Shown here: in pieces, positions 1,428-9,185 of the stretch
How the letters are laid out: every line of letters begins with the position of its first letter
How positions within the stretch are numbered: position 1 is the stretch's first letter
Notes under the pieces: generated by a model
What the model was told of the DNA's origin: nothing
Databases searched by the model: none
Seen by the model: only the letters and a program-made list of their open reading frames with translations
Translations under genes and position numbers: made by a program
Assembly (NCBI GenBank): GCA_026692845.1
Contig: JAPLNM010000103.1
Coordinates: forward strand, 1 to 50,890
Direction of reading: 5' to 3'
Origin: Planctomycetota bacterium
Lineage (GTDB): Bacteria; Planctomycetota; Planctomycetia; Pirellulales; Pirellulaceae
DNA: 50,890 bases

Positions 1428-1455
1428 CTGACAATTCGTCGCAATCCTCTAGAAT
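1428..1455 (+). promoter_or_regulatory. Sigma70-like promoter of the nuo operon
   Basis: CTGACA at 1428-1433 and TAGAAT at 1450-1455 are separated by 16 bases and each differs from the consensus hexamer by one base. The predicted transcription start is near 1462, which leaves a leader of about 170 bases before nuoA. This is inferred from sequence only. The Rex-type palindrome lies immediately downstream, which fits a repressible promoter. Confidence 0.6.
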
Positions 1456-1462
1456 ACTCCTT

Positions 1463-1492
1463 ATAACTTTGTGAAAAATTTCACAAAGTTAT
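1463..1492. promoter_or_regulatory. Rex-type operator (redox repressor box) at the nuo promoter
   Basis: The segment is a perfect 14-bp inverted repeat with a 2-base centre. Its core at 1469-1486 is TTGTGAA-AAAT-TTCACAA. The published consensus for the NAD(H)-responsive repressor Rex in actinobacteria and firmicutes is TTGTGAA-N4-TTCACAA, and the match is complete. The site starts about 7 bases after the predicted transcription start, where a bound repressor would block initiation. Rex leaves DNA when NADH is high, so complex I would be made when there is NADH to oxidise. No rex gene is in the window, so the regulator is inferred. Confidence 0.75.
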
Positions 1493-1630
1493 GCCATGGA
1501 TCCGAGGTGGCCTAGGGTGCGGGGGTTTCCAAGCAGTGCGATGGAGAATTGGTCTATCGCCTTGGATTCTTGACTCGCCGTCTTGGCCGTCGTCGGATGG
1601 ATGTTCGAATGCTCAAGCGGAGGTTTTCTA

Positions 1631-2011
1631 GTGATTGCTCACTTGCCCATCCTGATCTACCTCATTGCGGTCCTAGGCTTTGCCGCAGTATCGCTGTTTT
1701 TGCCTCACGTGGTGGCCCCCCGGCGGCCGACGCGGATCAAGGACATGCCCTACGAGTCGGGGATGGATCCGATCGGAGATGCCAAAAAGCCCTTCGACAT
1801 CAAGTTCTACCTTACGGCGATCCTTTTTTTGGTTTTTGATATTGAGCTTTTGTTTTTGTATCCATGGGCTGTATCGCTTAGAGCTCCTGATGGGGTTCCC
1901 GAATCGTTTCGGCCTGCAGTCTTGGCTGTGTTGATGGTTCTTCTTGCAACCCTGGCCTTGGCGTATTGGGTGGCTTACCGCAAAGGAGTCTTCGATTGGC
2001 GACGCAAATAG
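1631..2011 (+). CDS. nuoA: NADH-quinone oxidoreductase subunit A
   Basis: NuoA (ND3) is a small membrane subunit of complex I, with three membrane helices next to the quinone site. The [18 protein letters not shown] loop and the following [15 protein letters not shown] helix are diagnostic. Ser replaces the loop Cys of mitochondrial ND3, as in many bacteria. I chose GTG 1631, giving 126 residues, because GGAGG ends 7 bases upstream and the protein then begins at the first helix ([11 protein letters not shown]). A longer reading from TTG 1583 adds 16 residues without a ribosome site. It is the first gene of the operon and its end overlaps the nuoB start. Confidence 0.93.
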
Positions 2012-2598
2012 ACAAGCAACTCGGCGATAACGTATTTCTTAGCACCGTGGATGCGGCCGCATCTTGGGCTCGTGCCAATAGTCTTTGGCCGATGCCTTTT
2101 GCAACGGCCTGCTGTGGTATTGAGCTGATGAGTACCGCGGCCTCCAAGCACGACCTATCGCGCTTCGGGAGTGAGGTCATGCGATTTACGCCTCGGCAAT
2201 GCGACTTGATGATCGTCGCTGGACGTGTGGTCATGAAGATGATCCCGGTCCTGCAGCGTATATGGCTTCAAATGCCGGAGCCGAAATGGTGTATTTCAAT
2301 GGGAGCGTGCGCGTGCACCGGCGGGGTCTTTGATACTTATGCGGTCGTGCAGGGAATCGACCGATTCCTTCCAGTGGACATCTACATCCCTGGATGCCCA
2401 CCGCGTCCTGAGCAGTTGATCAAAGCGATCATGGATCTGCAGGAAAAGATAAAGAGGACAGGGACTTACGACGCTCGCGAGTTCAAGCTTCGGATCCTTC
2501 CGGACGGTCCTAGTCGCTTTGACGAAGACGAATTGGTCCGCATCCGCGAGCGCAACGGCTTGCAGCTCGAAGCGCCCAAGTACGACCCGATCCACTAA
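1996..2598 (+). CDS. nuoB: NADH-quinone oxidoreductase subunit B (cluster N2)
   Basis: NuoB carries the terminal 4Fe-4S cluster N2, which passes electrons to quinone. The ligands are visible with numbering from TTG 1996: the adjacent pair C39/C40 (ATACCGIE), C105 in the MGAC block and C134 in [13 protein letters not shown] 1996 is preferred because AAAGGAG lies 7 bases before it. The frame is open further upstream, but that part lies inside nuoA. The reading overlaps the last 16 bases of nuoA, which suggests translational coupling. At 200 residues it is of normal length. A 15-bp tandem duplication includes its stop codon. Confidence 0.95.
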
Positions 2599-2631: not shown

Positions 2632-3135
2632 ATGTCGGAATTTACAAAACTCAAAGAATCGCTCGAGTCCAAGCTTCCGGGCTTGGTGACGGCTTGGTCC
2701 GAGTTTCGCTCCCAGCAGCGAGTCGCTGTCCCGGCGTCGCATATCGCACAAGCCCTAGGGGTGCTTCGGGATGCGGGTATGGATCAATTGGTCGATATCA
2801 CGGCCGTCGACATGCTCGAGTATCCTGGGGCAACGGACCGTTTCGAGGTGGTCTATTTGCTGCTCGACACGCAAAGCGGCCAGCGGCTAATTGTAAAGAC
2901 GCACATCAATGAGCCAGATTTGAAGCTTCCGTCGGCATGTCCGATTTGGTTCGGTGCCGATTGGCTTGAGCGTGAAGTGTACGACATGTTCGGAATCGTA
3001 TTCGAAGGCCATCCGAACTTCAAACGCCTGCTGCTTCCTGACGCCTTCGAATCCTTCCCGCTTCGCAAAGACTATCCGGTCAAGGGCCGGGGCGAACGCC
3101 ATAACTTCCCTATTATCACCCGCGCGGAGAGCTAA
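2632..3135 (+). CDS. nuoC: NADH-quinone oxidoreductase subunit C
   Basis: This is the 30-kDa-type hydrophilic subunit of the complex I connecting module. The C-terminal signature is present: WLEREVYDMFGI, then HPNFKRLLLPD and FPLRKDYPVKG. At 167 residues it is a free-standing NuoC, not the NuoCD fusion of E. coli. The ATG at 2632 has no clear ribosome site; the 33-base spacer after nuoB consists mainly of the tandem duplication. nuoD begins 5 bases after its stop. Confidence 0.95.
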   Translation: MSEFTKLKESLESKLPGLVTAWSEFRSQQRVAVPASHIAQALGVLRDAGMDQLVDITAVDMLEYPGATDRFEVVYLLLDTQSGQRLIVKTHINEPDLKLPSACPIWFGADWLEREVYDMFGIVFEGHPNFKRLLLPDAFESFPLRKDYPVKGRGERHNFPIITRAES

Positions 3136-3140
3136 ATCAG

Positions 3141-4361
3141 ATGCCTTTGGACCTGATCGATTCGCCTGACTTCGACGCCGGCTACCGCGAAGGTTTGTGG
3201 ACCTTGAATTTTGGTCCGCAGCACCCGGCCACCCACACAACATTGCGTCTGGTTTTGAAGCTCGACGGTGAGATGGTCGTCGAAGCCGAGCCAGACATCG
3301 GATTTCTGCACAGCGGTTTTGAAAAGCTTGCCGAGGTCCTCGACTACAACCAGTACGTGACGATCGTCGACCGGATGAATTACATCTCTCCGATGGCCAA
3401 CGAGATCGCTTGGCACCATGCGGTTGAAGGTCTATTGGGTATCGAGCTGACCCCGCGATGCAAGTACATACGAACGATTTTCGCTGAGCTCATGCGGATA
3501 CACGATCACTTGCTGTGCACCGGCACCTGCGTGCTTGACCTCGGTGGTGCGACGGCGTTTATGTACGCGTTTAACGAGCGAGAAAAGATCTACGAGATTT
3601 GCGAAAGGGCCAGCGGCCAGCGATTCCACACCAGCTACACCCGTGTAGGGGGCTTGCTCTACGACGTGACCGACGACTGGGTTGCGATGGTGCGGGATTT
3701 TTGCAAAACCTTCCCAAGAGCCTACCGAGACTTCGCCGGCCTTGTGATGAAGAACCGCATCTTTGTCGAGCGGACGCGCGACGTCGGTGTCTTGAGCCAA
3801 GCCGATGCGATTGCAGGGGGTGCGACGGGTCCTGTGGCGCGAGCAAGCGGTGTCGAGAGAGACTTGCGTCGCGATGAGCCCTATCTGGCCTACAACGATC
3901 TGGATTTTGATGTCTGCTGTGCTCAGGGTGGCGATTGCTATGCACGCTTCCAGGTCCGCATGATGGAAATGCTTGAGAGTGTCAAGATCATCGAGCAAGC
4001 GATCAACAAGCTTCCATCGGGACCGGTTTTTATCTCCGGCACAGGCAAAGAAGGTCTGCCGGACAAAACCGAAGTCTATCGCAGCATCGAGGGCCTGATC
4101 CATCACTTTGAAAACATCATGCCAAACCGCCAGATGCCTTCTCCAAAAGAGTCGTATTACGGCGCAACGGAATCCCCCAACGGCGAACTTGGCTATTACA
4201 TCGTCTCGGACGGTGACTTCAAAGCCTACCGAGCCCGGACCCGACCACCTTCCCTGCTTCACTTTTCCCTGTTTAGCCGCATGATCCGAGGCTGCATGCT
4301 CAGCGACGTGGCCGCTGTTCTAGGTAGCATCAACATCATCGCTGCGGAGTTGGATCGATGA
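3141..4361 (+). CDS. nuoD: NADH-quinone oxidoreductase subunit D
   Basis: NuoD is the 49-kDa-type subunit, derived from the large subunit of NiFe hydrogenases, and forms the quinone pocket with NuoB. Visible signatures are FGPQHPATHTTLR near the N-terminus (the His in the quinone-site loop), GFLHSGFEKLAE, ESPNGELGYY, and the C-terminal RPPSLLHFSLFSRMIRG followed by DVAAVLGSINIIAAELDR. The hydrogenase metal cysteines are absent, as expected. At 406 residues it is of typical length. Its TGA overlaps the nuoE ATG (ATGA). Confidence 0.96.
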   Translation: MPLDLIDSPDFDAGYREGLWTLNFGPQHPATHTTLRLVLKLDGEMVVEAEPDIGFLHSGFEKLAEVLDYNQYVTIVDRMNYISPMANEIAWHHAVEGLLGIELTPRCKYIRTIFAELMRIHDHLLCTGTCVLDLGGATAFMYAFNEREKIYEICERASGQRFHTSYTRVGGLLYDVTDDWVAMVRDFCKTFPRAYRDFAGLVMKNRIFVERTRDVGVLSQADAIAGGATGPVARASGVERDLRRDEPYLAYNDLDFDVCCAQGGDCYARFQVRMMEMLESVKIIEQAINKLPSGPVFISGTGKEGLPDKTEVYRSIEGLIHHFENIMPNRQMPSPKESYYGATESPNGELGYYIVSDGDFKAYRARTRPPSLLHFSLFSRMIRGCMLSDVAAVLGSINIIAAELDR

Positions 4362-4852
4362 GCGAACTGAGCGAAAACGCAAAACAAATCATCGCCGAGC
4401 ACTTGCCTCGCTACCCGAGCAAACAAGCCGTCACGTTGCCGGCCTTGCACATCGTGCAGCAAGAGCGCCGATGCGTGAGCAACAAAGCGATGGAAGAGAT
4501 CGCTGAATTGCTCGAACTGTCCCCTGCCCAAATCAACGACACGGCCTCCTTCTACGGTTTCTTTCGAACCGAAGACAATCCTCTTGGCCAAAAACGCATT
4601 TGGGTCTGCCGTTCGCTCCCGTGCATGCTCCGAGGGGGCGAAGAACTCCTTGCAGCGCTTTGCGAAAAATACCACATCGCTCCGGGCGAAACGACAGCCG
4701 ACGGGAAACTGACGATCGAACTTGCCGAGTGTTTGGGGGCCTGCGACGGGGCTCCATGCATCCTGCTCGAAGATGAGCTGCACCTGCGATGTAGCCTTGA
4801 AGACGTCGAACGTATCGCCAACGAGCCAAACGCTCCAACCAAGAAAGCTTGA
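4358..4852 (+). CDS. nuoE: NADH-quinone oxidoreductase subunit E (cluster N1a)
   Basis: NuoE is the thioredoxin-like 24-kDa-type subunit of the NADH module and binds the 2Fe-2S cluster N1a. The four ligands are C84 and C89 (VCRSLPC) and C125 and C129 (ECLGACDGAPC). An N-terminal helical bundle at residues 1-60 precedes them. It has 164 residues and overlaps nuoD by 4 bases. nuoF follows after a short gap. Confidence 0.95.
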   Translation: MSELSENAKQIIAEHLPRYPSKQAVTLPALHIVQQERRCVSNKAMEEIAELLELSPAQINDTASFYGFFRTEDNPLGQKRIWVCRSLPCMLRGGEELLAALCEKYHIAPGETTADGKLTIELAECLGACDGAPCILLEDELHLRCSLEDVERIANEPNAPTKKA

Positions 4853-4866
4853 AGCGAGATCCAAAC

Positions 4867-6201
4867 ATGAGCCAAACTGAATTCAAACCGGTGTTGTTAG
4901 GTCGAATAGGCAAGCCCGACAGCCAGTCTTTGGCCTCCTACCGCGCCGACGGCGGCTATGAGGCGTTGGCCAAATCCTTGAAGATGGCCAACACAGAGGT
5001 CATTGATTTGGTGAAGAATTCCGGCCTTCGAGGACGCGGCGGGGCAGGGTTCCCGACGGGACTCAAGTGGACCTTCCTTCCTAAAGATGTCCAAGGGCCG
5101 ATTTACCTGTGCATCAACGGTGACGAAAGCGAACCTGGGACTTTCAATAATCGAGTGCTGATCGAAGAAGACCCGCACCAAGTCCTTGAGGGGATCGTCA
5201 TCAGCAGCTTTGCGACCCGTGCGACGACGGCTTATTTCTATCTTCGCTACGAGTACGGCCGATGCTATCGCGCCCTACAAAAAGCGGTCGATGAGATGTA
5301 CGCGAACAATCTGCTCGGCAAGAACATCCTTGGATCGGGCTACGACCTGGATATTTATCTTCACCGCGGCGCGTGCGCATACATCTGCGGTGAAGAAACC
5401 GGCTTGATCGAAAGCCTCGAAGGCAAGCGAGCATGGCCTCGGATCAAGCCCCCGTTTCCGGCCATCGAAGGTGCCTTTCGCAGACCCACCGTGGTCAACA
5501 ATGTCGAAACGATGGCGTGCATACCCCACATCATCAACCATGGTTCGGAGTGGTTCCAATCGATGGGGGTACCCAAAGACCCTAACAATCCACGCGATGC
5601 CGGATCCTACGGTCCGAAACTCTACTGCATCAGCGGACACGTCAACAAACCCGGTCTGGTCGAATTGCCCATGGGGATCACCGCCCGCGATTTGATCGAT
5701 CAGCATGGCGGTGGCGTCTGGAAGGGGCGAAAAGCCAAGGCGGTTATTCCTGGCGGCTTGAGCATGGGTTTTATGACCAACGCCGAACTCGATACCCCCT
5801 TGGACTTCAATGGCCCAGGCCGCGTCGGTTGTCTCGGACTAGGAACCGCTGCGGTGGTCGTCATCGATGACCATACCAGCATGATCGATGTCCTTTACAA
5901 CTCCTGCCGATTCTTTGAACACGAATCCTGCGGACAATGCACCCCGTGCCGCGAAGGCACCGCTTGGTCGACCAAGATCCTCGAGCGCATCCGCGAGGGC
6001 AAAGGCAAACTCAGCGATATCGACCTGCTGATGGAAATCGCCAATTCGATTGGGACCATTCCCGGCACGACGATCTGCGGACTGGCCGACGGGGCCGCTT
6101 GGCCGATCAAAACAGCGATCAACAAATTCCGCGGTGAATTTGAAGAGTACATCAAAAGCGGACAACGCAGCCAGAGTCTAGCTCTTGCTGGCGCTCACTA
6201 G
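4867..6201 (+). CDS. nuoF: NADH-quinone oxidoreductase subunit F (NADH- and FMN-binding, cluster N3)
   Basis: NuoF oxidises NADH through FMN. The glycine-rich NADH/FMN site reads GLRGRGGAGFPTGLKW at residues ~54-68. ICGEETGLIESLEG is the second flavin-site block. Cluster N3 ligands are C355, C358 and C361 (SCGQCTPCREG) and C404. I chose ATG 4867, giving 444 residues; the frame also allows TTG 4849, which would overlap nuoE. The spacer to nuoG contains a sequence (CAAAGCATTTG) resembling the nuoB-nuoC duplication. Confidence 0.95.
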   Translation: MSQTEFKPVLLGRIGKPDSQSLASYRADGGYEALAKSLKMANTEVIDLVKNSGLRGRGGAGFPTGLKWTFLPKDVQGPIYLCINGDESEPGTFNNRVLIEEDPHQVLEGIVISSFATRATTAYFYLRYEYGRCYRALQKAVDEMYANNLLGKNILGSGYDLDIYLHRGACAYICGEETGLIESLEGKRAWPRIKPPFPAIEGAFRRPTVVNNVETMACIPHIINHGSEWFQSMGVPKDPNNPRDAGSYGPKLYCISGHVNKPGLVELPMGITARDLIDQHGGGVWKGRKAKAVIPGGLSMGFMTNAELDTPLDFNGPGRVGCLGLGTAAVVVIDDHTSMIDVLYNSCRFFEHESCGQCTPCREGTAWSTKILERIREGKGKLSDIDLLMEIANSIGTIPGTTICGLADGAAWPIKTAINKFRGEFEEYIKSGQRSQSLALAGAH

Positions 6202-6242: not shown

Positions 6243-7946
6243 GTGGTCAAAGTCAAAGTTAATGACATCGAGGTGGATGCAGATCCCAAGGACAACTGCA
6301 TCCTGGCGGCTCGAAAAGCTGGGGTCGAAATCCCTCACTACTGCTGGCACGAATCGCTGTCGGTCGTCGCTTCTTGCCGCATGTGCTTGGTCGAGGTCGG
6401 AGAGACCAAACCCGACGGGACCGTCGCGATGGGACCCAAGCTCGTACCGGGCTGCCAAACGCCGATCAAAGAAGGGACCATCATCCGGACCGATTCGTCC
6501 AAGGTGAAAACCTCGCAGCAAATGACCCTTGAGCTGCTACTGCTCAATCACCCACTGGATTGTTCGATCTGCGACCAAGCCGGCGAATGCTATTTGCAGG
6601 ATTACACCTACAAGTACGGCAAGGCGCATAGCCGCCTCGATGAGCCGAAAATCCAGCGGGAAGACAAGTACCACATCGGAGAACAGATCGCCCTGTTTAC
6701 CGACCGTTGCGTCATGTGCACCCGTTGCGTTCGCTTCACCCGCGAAATCAGTGGAACGGCCGAGCTCCAGGTTGTGGCTCGCGGTTCGCACGAAGAAATC
6801 GATGTCTTCCCAGATACCCCGTGCAACAACAAACTCGCTGGCAACGTCGTCGACCTTTGTCCCGTCGGTGCGCTCTGCAGCAAAGACTTCCTCTACAAGA
6901 AACGCGTCTGGTGGCTCAAGCACGCCGACAGCGTCTGCACGGGATGTTCGACAGGTTGCAGCGTCCAAGTCGATCAAAACGACAACAAAGTCTACCGGTT
7001 GCGCCCCAGGGAAAACCCACAAGCCCAGGGTCATTTCATGTGCGACGAAGGACGCTTCGGTTTCAAATACATCCACGACGAACGACGCATCAAGTATCCG
7101 AGGCTCAAAGCTCCATCGGCCACTACAAACGCAACGGTCCGTTCGACAGAGCCTTCCGATTTGACGTTTGCTGATCCATGGCCGATGGTCTTGGCCGATA
7201 CCCGTAAACGCATCCAAACGGCGATCCAAAACGACCCGTCGGGTTTCGTTGTCGTTCTGTCTGCGTTCATGACCGTCGAAGAAGCCTACCTGCTAGCTTC
7301 TTACATCAAGGGAATCGATTCGCGAACCAAATTGACCCTAGGGCCCATTCCGATCGTCGGTAGCGATGATCTGTACCCCAAGGGTCCCAAGGGCCAGTCG
7401 CCGGCGGCCGATAAAGTCAAATTCACGATTCGAGCTGAGAAATGCCCGAACCGAACCGGTATCGAAGCGATCCTGCGACATTTCGAAGGGTCGGTCATCC
7501 AGGCCGAATCGCTCGGGAAATCCTCGGCCAGCGCCTGGTTCGTCGTCGGTGGCTACAGCAGTGGCTGGGTCAACGAGAAGATCGACCAAGCTGTCGGGAC
7601 CCCATCGCTTTTGATCGTCCAAGACATCTTCCCATCCCCGCTGAGCGAACGGGCCGATGTGGTTCTGGCCGCAGGATCTTTCGCCGAACGCGATGGAACC
7701 TATGTCAACCATGCAGGGCTAGCCCAAGCGACGCATGCATCGATTCGCCCCCCAGAGCAAGCCCGAGCCGACGGCAGGATTCTTATGGACCTCGCCGGGC
7801 GTGCGGGACTGTTCAACGCCATGGCGTTGCGCAAGGAAATTGGAACCAAGATCCCTGAACTATCCGCCATAGCCACTGGAGATCTCGGTGAGCATGGAGT
7901 GCGACTTGCCAAGTTCGCCAATCGTCCTGCTGCGGCCAAAAGCTGA
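6243..7946 (+). CDS. nuoG: NADH-quinone oxidoreductase subunit G (multi-cluster subunit)
   Basis: NuoG carries most Fe-S clusters of the peripheral arm. Ligands seen are C34, C45, C48 and C71 for the 2Fe-2S cluster, H103/C107/C110/C116 for N5 (HPLDCSICDQAGEC), and C156/C159/C162 plus the LCPVGAL cysteine for N4. A further C-x2-C-x3-C-x27-C set (VCTGCSTGC to FMCDEGRF) matches the extra N7 site of E. coli and Thermus. The start is GTG 6243. At 567 residues it is shorter than many bacterial NuoG (about 690-900), and the molybdopterin-oxidoreductase-like C-terminal part looks trimmed. A TGA leads to a 36-base gap before nuoH. Confidence 0.95.
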   Translation: MVKVKVNDIEVDADPKDNCILAARKAGVEIPHYCWHESLSVVASCRMCLVEVGETKPDGTVAMGPKLVPGCQTPIKEGTIIRTDSSKVKTSQQMTLELLLLNHPLDCSICDQAGECYLQDYTYKYGKAHSRLDEPKIQREDKYHIGEQIALFTDRCVMCTRCVRFTREISGTAELQVVARGSHEEIDVFPDTPCNNKLAGNVVDLCPVGALCSKDFLYKKRVWWLKHADSVCTGCSTGCSVQVDQNDNKVYRLRPRENPQAQGHFMCDEGRFGFKYIHDERRIKYPRLKAPSATTNATVRSTEPSDLTFADPWPMVLADTRKRIQTAIQNDPSGFVVVLSAFMTVEEAYLLASYIKGIDSRTKLTLGPIPIVGSDDLYPKGPKGQSPAADKVKFTIRAEKCPNRTGIEAILRHFEGSVIQAESLGKSSASAWFVVGGYSSGWVNEKIDQAVGTPSLLIVQDIFPSPLSERADVVLAAGSFAERDGTYVNHAGLAQATHASIRPPEQARADGRILMDLAGRAGLFNAMALRKEIGTKIPELSAIATGDLGEHGVRLAKFANRPAAAKS

Positions 7947-7982
7947 TAGCACTCCAGGGAGTCCCAACAAGGAACACTGTTG

Positions 7983-9185
7983 ATGATCAATAACTTAATC
8001 AATAGCTTATTCGAGTACTGGCCTGTTCTGTGGCCCGCGCTGGCGGCGATCGGAGTGATCCTTGCCGTCGTGCCATTCCTTGGCCTATACATGACCTTCG
8101 TCGAGCGCAAGATCGCTGCGTACGTTCAAGACCGAGTCGGACCCAACCGAGTCGGACCCTTCGGGCTTTTCCAAGCGATCGCCGACGGAATTAAAATTTT
8201 CCTCAAAGAGCAACTCATCCCCGATCACGTCTTTACGGCTTTGTATTTCCTGGCTCCGGCTTTCAGCTTGATCACGGCCATGTTCGCATTGGTCGTCATG
8301 CCCTTTGGACCTGTGGCAACCGACTACAAAGATGGGTTTCGATTCATCGTGGCACCTGGGATCGATATCGGCATTTTGATGATGCTCGCGATCAGTTCGT
8401 TGTCGGCCTATGGAATCATCGTCGGCGGCTGGGCATCGAACAGCAAGTATTCGATCTATGGCGCGATCCGCTCTTGCGCTCAGTTTATCAGCTACGAGAT
8501 TCCGCTCGGCCTATCGATCCTCGGAGTCATCGCCATTACCGGCTCGCTGAATATCGAAAAAATCGTCGAAGCTCAGTCGGGAAGTCTTTTCGATTGGAAC
8601 GTGTTTTGGCAACCGGTTGCGATGTTGGTGTTCTTTACGGCTGCACTCGCGGAAACCAACCGACTGCCATTTGACTTGCCCGAGTGCGAGCAAGAGCTAG
8701 TCGGGGGATTTCACACCGAATACAGCGGGATCAAATTCGTTCTTTACTTCTTGGCTGAATACACGCACATCGTCACGGTAAGCTTCCTTACCGCCCTACT
8801 GTTTCTCGGCGGCTGGCACTTCCCCGGGCTCCCAGGCCCCTCGGGTGCGTCGACACCGATTCTTTTATTGGGCTTAGGAGTGCTGCTGGCCAAGGTCTCT
8901 TTGGTGGTCTTGGTCATCATTCTTTTGCGTTGGTCTTTGCCCCGATTCCGCTTCGACCAATTGATGGGGTTGGCCTGGAAAGGTCTGATCCCGCTTGGGC
9001 TGGTAAATCTCGTCGGAGTTGCGATCGTGCTGTCGCTCGGACTCCCAAAGCATCTTTTGATTGCTACGGTTATCCTTCCTGTCCTAGGCGCTTATTACAG
9101 TGCCGCGAAGTTCAATGCTTCGACGGCAATACCAAACGCAACGCGACAAGGACTCTCACCCCAAGGAGCGGTCTCGTATGAGTGA
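7983..9185 (+). CDS. nuoH: NADH-quinone oxidoreductase subunit H
   Basis: NuoH (ND1) is the membrane subunit that seals the quinone chamber. Signatures are the VERKIAAYVQDRVGPNRVGP loop after the first helix, the QAIADGIKIFLKE stretch, and the acidic loop ETNRLPFDLPECEQELVGGF. About eight hydrophobic helices follow through 400 residues. ATG 7983 is preferred, with AAGGA 8 bases upstream; a TTG precedes it directly. The C-terminal 40 residues extend beyond the usual end and overlap nuoI by 8 bases. Confidence 0.95.
   Translation: MINNLINSLFEYWPVLWPALAAIGVILAVVPFLGLYMTFVERKIAAYVQDRVGPNRVGPFGLFQAIADGIKIFLKEQLIPDHVFTALYFLAPAFSLITAMFALVVMPFGPVATDYKDGFRFIVAPGIDIGILMMLAISSLSAYGIIVGGWASNSKYSIYGAIRSCAQFISYEIPLGLSILGVIAITGSLNIEKIVEAQSGSLFDWNVFWQPVAMLVFFTAALAETNRLPFDLPECEQELVGGFHTEYSGIKFVLYFLAEYTHIVTVSFLTALLFLGGWHFPGLPGPSGASTPILLLGLGVLLAKVSLVVLVIILLRWSLPRFRFDQLMGLAWKGLIPLGLVNLVGVAIVLSLGLPKHLLIATVILPVLGAYYSAAKFNASTAIPNATRQGLSPQGAVSYE

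Follow-up and report, generated by a model that had tools for sequence, protein, structure and literature searches.

The nuo operon and its promoter region

The stretch of DNA analysed here (the window) comprises 50,890 nucleotides from a planctomycete of the Pirellulaceae and carries near its start the complex I genes nuoA to nuoH, preceded by a promoter-like sequence and a palindrome. The features of the locus are the following:

1428..1433, + strand: -35-like hexamer CTGACA; NTGACA with a 16-bp spacer in 27/27 genus genomes
1450..1455, + strand: -10-like hexamer TAGAAT, by consensus match only; the 26 remaining genomes of the genus have TACAAT
1463..1492, no strand: 30-bp palindrome around the box, with 14-bp arms and 2 unpaired central bases; outer arms vary in the genus
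1469..1486, no strand: predicted Rex operator (ROP) TTGTGAA-AAAT-TTCACAA, the box, 13 bp past the -10 hexamer; from motif search and conservation
1619..1623, + strand: GGAGG ribosome-binding sequence, assigned by eye
1631..2011, + strand: nuoA, GTG start; NCBIfam NF005922 with E 7e-24, below the curated cut-off; nuoA genes 39-98% identical lie behind the box in relatives
1999..2598, + strand: nuoB; NF005012 with 229 bits, cut-off 116
2632..3135, + strand: nuoC; E 4e-35, below cut-offs
3141..4361, + strand: nuoD; NF004739 with 457.7 bits, cut-off 360
4358..4852, + strand: nuoE; E 2.6e-36, below cut-offs
4849..6201, + strand: nuoF; NF010120 with 483.7 bits, cut-off 389
6243..7946, + strand: nuoG, 567 aa; TIGR01973 with E 3e-112, below the cut-off
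7980..9185, + strand: nuoH; NF004741 with 334 bits, cut-off 305
to about 17,380, + strand: more open reading frames on the nuo strand, from ORF calls

Upstream of the box lies msrB, a methionine sulfoxide reductase gene by its family profile. A motif search of the window found the 18-mer TTGTGAAAAATTTCACAA at 1469-1486 with 0 mismatches to the palindrome TTGTGAANNNNTTCACAA, in the promoter region and 144 bp 5' of nuoA, and no second site with up to 3 mismatches. The original prediction had described this 18-mer as lying inside a 30-bp palindrome, which was confirmed, and had placed it about 14 bases after a CTGACA-16-TAGAAT promoter; a promoter-like sequence of this form does span 1428-1455, and the distance is 13 bases.

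In the organism's own genome the box is the sole copy with 0 or 1 mismatch. At 2 mismatches there are 11 other places, and the resulting 12 forward matches including the box are not far above the 7 places that the reversed control pattern has at up to 2 mismatches. For perfect copies, the chance expectation from the window composition (55.3% GC) is 0.0095 per 5.24 Mb genome and 4e-7 per 200 bp.

Conservation of the box in the genus

To assess conservation, 27 genomes of the genus selected without regard to the presence of the box were compared. The perfect pattern was found in 27/27 and the reversed control in none, and in every genome nuoA is preceded by a copy at a distance of 25-147 bp. Given this conservation and the 0.0095 copies expected per genome, a chance origin of the box was rejected. 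G002 has two further perfect copies and G025 one; all three fall within open frames of at least 1005 aa and were set aside as chance matches. Save for these, each genus genome has one perfect box. The promoter arrangement is kept as well, the box following NTGACA-16-TANAAT by 12-13 bp in 27/27 genomes (TACAAT in 26, TAGAAT in the window). In genomes beyond the genus, a terminator-like T-run often precedes the nuo box, and in seven members of the order no clear sigma-70 promoter was seen before it, so that the promoter layout differs there.

The constant core in the genus is TTGTGAA[A/T]-NN-TTTCACAA, in which box position 11 is always T, in addition to the invariant 14 bases of the motif. Flanking bases are partly conserved. 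After the box, AGT is found with its A and T in 27/27 genomes and its G in 26/27. Before it stand AGT in 17 genomes, AGA in 4, the palindromic ACT in 4 and a different triplet in 2. A full-length perfect palindrome as in the window is therefore partly peculiar to that genome and not general in the genus.

Rex in the organism and its relatives

Outside the window, the same genome has a single intact rex gene (G000:C105:29460-30092) encoding a protein of 211 aa. Its family membership is indicated by PF06971 (E 5e-17) and NCBIfam NF003995 (236.6 bits against a cut-off of 126, over residues 5-209). The closest named relative is a protein of a Pirellula sp. MAG with 93% identity, which marks the organism as Pirellula-like and thereby points to the Pirellulaceae in the class Planctomycetia. 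The best match among solved structures is PDB 5zz5 (E 2e-45), which the excerpts of PMC8836258 used here give as Thermotoga maritima Rex. According to the same excerpts, that structure holds NAD+ and operator, and the DNA-reading residues are Arg48, Lys49, Arg60 and Gly61. The window organism's Rex retains Arg48, Arg60 and Gly61 but has Arg in place of the T. maritima Lys49, a conservative change in the recognition helix. Among 33 planctomycete Rex sequences compared (L001, L012-L040, L098, L103, L104), the counterparts of Arg48 and Gly61 are retained in all, Lys49 is replaced by Arg in 23 and Arg60 by Pro in 9; the three glycines of the NAD(H) site, GVGNLG in our organism, are retained in 33/33. 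Within the genus, 20 of the 23 Rex sequences compared combine a QVRRD recognition helix with a QRGVGY wing. In other genera of the order QVRKDL was found in 9/10 sequences, with YPGIGY in 8 of these 9.

A rex gene was found in 55 of 60 genomes (our organism and 59 relatives) and in 26/27 of the genus, although in G008 it is split in two pieces in different frames. In our organism rex stands directly behind a gene labelled from its sequence as an AONS-like enzyme, as in 16 of 21 genus rex loci. In the 16 kb around rex in the organism's own genome the motif search found no box with up to 3 mismatches, and no autoregulation was seen. Autoregulation of rex is common but not universal.

Co-occurrence of the box and rex across the class

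For a wider comparison we used 238 genomes of the class that were at least 95% complete and drawn evenly from a larger group. The perfect box was present in 85 and the reversed control in 3, while 126 had rex over the family cut-off; one genome with a match below it (G252) was counted as lacking rex. Perfect boxes were found in 75/126 genomes with rex as opposed to 10/112 without, and 51/126 genomes with rex had no perfect box. The association has a p-value of 4e-17, which overstates the independence of the genomes because most of those lacking rex belong to one family, f22; without this family p is 0.004, the remaining genomes likewise not being independent. In f22, rex was found in 0/91 and the perfect box in 5/91 genomes. 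None of these copies adjoins a tested electron-transport gene, and two (G084, G100) are inside long open frames. Family f21, on the other hand, has rex in 24/24 genomes and the perfect box in 20/24. In all 20, nuoA lies next to the box, as established for 17 from coordinates and for 3 separately.

The region upstream of nuoA provides a sharper test than the class-wide counts. A box with up to 3 mismatches was found there in 17/20 stretches from genomes that have rex and no perfect box, and in 1/20 stretches from genomes without rex. The former came, among the matches listed for nuoA, from 18 of the 51 such genomes (G060 and G102 contributing two each). The latter represent 20 of the 112 genomes lacking rex, with L184 truncated where its contig ends and G116 omitted because of its position at a contig start. 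The three stretches without a box among the former were those of the two nuoA copies in G060 and of the second copy in G102.

Thus rex occurs in the same genome as the box and the two co-occur across genomes, with exceptions. Among the ten class genomes with a perfect box and no rex, three have it at NADH-dehydrogenase operons (nuo in G021 and G064, nqr in G078) and seven do not, as judged by BLAST. When all genomes were considered, a box at nuo or nqr was present and rex not found in G021 (99% complete), G050 (95%), G058 (88%), G064 (97%) and G078 (99%).

Other possible readers of the box

These exceptions raise the possibility that the box is read by a second factor other than Rex, or by a diverged Rex that escapes the profile, at least in the genomes without rex and perhaps here. 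The clearest case is G021, a member of the genus. Its usual rex neighbour is present and followed by a gene that reads in translation as glmS-like, and rex was found neither behind this neighbour (L102) nor by search elsewhere in the genome. The 18-mer is nevertheless intact, with all 14 motif bases. Some of the flanking bases have changed: the second base after the box is A, where all 26 other members of the genus have G; the base directly preceding the box is G, where they have T or A; and the third base preceding it is T, against A in 25 of them and G in one. These changes hint faintly at a constraint relaxing after a recent loss of rex, although a second reader of the core would fit them too. 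Since draft genomes can miss genes and the box is rare overall where rex is absent, we consider such a factor very improbable.

A site for a regulator of the CRP/FNR family was considered because the palindrome contains TGTGA-N6-TCACA, and the E. coli CRP consensus fits the same bases as the Rex box. Two of 8 further genomes (G050 and G137) do carry two CRP-type HTH domains each over the cut-off, G050 being boxed and without rex. In the organism's own genome (96% complete), however, HTH_Crp_2 (PF13545) gave only three weak matches and none over the cut-off, while 14/14 control genomes were positive; G021, G020 and G064 had no match, and G023, G058 and G078 had matches below the cut-off only. 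Moreover, A/T at positions 7 and 12 of the box is fixed in 27/27 genus genomes, whereas the matching positions are free in the CRP core, and the box tracks rex across the class. With the regulator over the cut-off absent from the organism's own genome, this reading was rejected as very improbable.

Least likely of all, and also rejected, is that the box acts as RNA, through a hairpin with which the nuo mRNA would begin, protecting the message or affecting translation: the strand at 1462-1500 does fold to a 14-bp hairpin (-15.0 kcal/mol), but it is the sequence and not the pairing that is kept, as matching changes on both sides occur in only 3 (L157, L166, L170) of the 17 imperfect boxes of genomes with rex, the remaining ones being changed on one side and some leaving a G-U wobble, the second outer pair is G opposite G or A in 22/27 genus genomes, and the occurrence of the box goes with that of a protein gene located elsewhere in the genome.

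Genes behind the box in relatives

To see which other genes carry the box, we collected 112 perfect sites, namely all 56 in the 60 genomes, 41 hand-picked among the matches listed for the class, and those of 15 further loci (3 more sites had no locus). They are not a random sample, so the following proportions are not representative. Counting gene starts between -60 and 400 bp relative to the box, we found nuoA at 51 sites, nqrA at 9, a multihaem cytochrome at 12, a CBS-domain protein at 5, NDH-2 at 1 and a menaquinone-biosynthesis-family gene at 1, while 33/112 had none of the tested target genes nearby. Pfam domains over the cut-off were identified in the scanned nqrA genes, in NDH-2 (its C-terminal domain among them), in the CBS proteins, in the menaquinone-family gene and, as Cytochrome_C7, in the cytochrome. 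With NCBIfam, the cytochrome had only a match to QrcA below the cut-off and the menaquinone-family gene had none. Targets in NADH oxidation or respiration are thus represented by nuo here and by nuo, nqr, NDH-2 and others in relatives, and the neighbours that could be named mostly serve NADH oxidation and downstream electron transport. In three genomes with the box at nqrA (G032, G078, G195), no NuoA was found among the matches listed.

The box stands before the multihaem cytochrome gene of an operon resembling alternative complex III or Qrc at 12 loci of family f23 (L111-L117, L119-L121, L123, L125). At L116 and L119 the cytochrome gene is followed by one for a protein over the TIGR04519 cut-off (molybdopterin oxidoreductase type), a gene order known from alternative complex III and Qrc operons. 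An aldo/keto-reductase-like frame, confirmed by Pfam in one case, starts on the other side of the box at L112, L115, L117 and L123, and at L124 an ATP synthase subunit a gene lies one open frame past the site.

A small protein with two CBS domains is encoded near perfect boxes at L054, L088, L095, L126 and L129 (in the genomes G030, G042, G055, G191 and G161) and is a candidate Rex target; those at L054 and L095 were added by Pfam. One of the 5 CBS-linked sites counted above (L292) falls inside a long open frame. In G161 the box occurs twice, 26 bp apart. Of the four perfect 18-mers in G193, two (L287, L297) are beside repeated short frames resembling CRISPR arrays, with no tested respiratory gene near.

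Proposed mechanism and significance

The sequence at 1469-1486 is, with high confidence, to be read as a predicted operator for the organism's own Rex. Several results count against this reading: the five genomes with a box at nuo or nqr in which rex was not found, the Arg in place of Lys49, the lack of a box near rex, in contrast to S. avermitilis, whose Rex controls its own operon, the two unboxed nuoA copies of G060, the 51/126 genomes that have rex and no perfect box, and the 33/112 perfect sites with none of the tested targets nearby. By analogy with the family, Rex in its low-NADH state would bind the box and so occupy roughly positions +7 to +25 of the transcript, blocking the nuo promoter. 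A build-up of NADH would cause NADH-bound Rex to leave the box, and complex I would be made. Complex I would then re-oxidise NADH and the repressor would return, closing a homeostatic loop. What operates at nuo in this Pirellula-like organism and in its relatives is very probably a familiar NADH-sensing redox switch.

The original prediction had linked nuo to NADH through a Rex homologue, and this gains support from the one intact rex found in the genome, from the palindrome core kept upstream of nuoA in 27/27 genus genomes and from the co-occurrence in the class; binding, release by NADH and repression would follow from what the family does elsewhere. Because rex is present and the core is conserved, the two points named beforehand as refuting tests, the interpretation was not refuted. 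The search that it had proposed for further 18-mers before respiratory genes gave a single copy in the organism's own genome; in relatives the box also precedes nqr, NDH-2, cytochrome and menaquinone-family genes.

In the genus, nuo seems from these searches to be the only strongly boxed Rex target, and weaker targets may exist beyond it. A broader proposal, for and against which we see the chances as evenly balanced, is that class-wide Rex is mainly a switch for the entry of NADH into the respiratory chain, that its operator has followed this role between the unrelated enzymes complex I, Na+-NQR and NDH-2, that the genus regulon has shrunk to a single operon without autoregulation, and that cases like G021 represent a further step in which the operator outlives its repressor.

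These results would extend NADH-responsive respiratory control to the planctomycetes, a large group with a thin experimental record, and the box and promoter of the nuo region form a ready, testable unit. A Rex with what seems to be one target and relatives in which rex was not found but the operator is retained offer natural comparisons for regulon shrinkage. In addition, the box can guide annotation in relatives, at nqr, NDH-2, the cytochrome/molybdopterin-type respiratory operon and the small two-CBS-domain protein.

Comparison with known Rex systems

The site is real, ordinary in kind and apparently undescribed in planctomycetes. That Rex control is little described in this group, as had been supposed, agrees with the open-licence literature: among the matches listed, no description of Rex in planctomycetes was found, and one match concerned the SOS response. 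In the broader searches, the sole paper with a planctomycete term among the matches listed was PMC12316311, on sigma-54, in which the Rex phrase is absent. A text search of the RegPrecise 3.0 paper gave 0 occurrences of 'planctomycetes'.

Rex regulons have been reconstructed across bacteria (Ravcheev et al. 2012, as quoted in passages of PMC6391272 and PMC5317091), with the general consensus TTGTGAANNNNTTCACAA. In Staphylococcus aureus the operator given in the excerpts of PMC2883068, TTGTGAAW4TTCACAA, is like the box of the window with its centre AAAT. The main text of that paper contains no nuo-prefixed words, and S. aureus Rex controls anaerobic genes for fermentation and nitrate respiration, as summarised in part of PMC5355995, unlike the nuo control proposed here.

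The closest parallels are found in Streptomyces avermitilis, for which we draw on excerpts of PMC5355995. There, Rex has eleven direct target genes or operons including its own operon, whereas the genome of the window organism shows no second strong box and none near rex. At nuo, the S. avermitilis operator deviates from the motif at 2 positions, with protection extending from -42 to -16, whereas the predicted operator of the window is perfect and lies past the -10 hexamer. A geometry like that inferred for the window box is seen in the same excerpts at cydA1, whose site is downstream of the start (protected from -3 to +25). Most directly, S. avermitilis nuoA1-N1 resembles the window in having the motif upstream of complex I, and the excerpts report that Rex was shown to bind there and that NADH reduces the binding.
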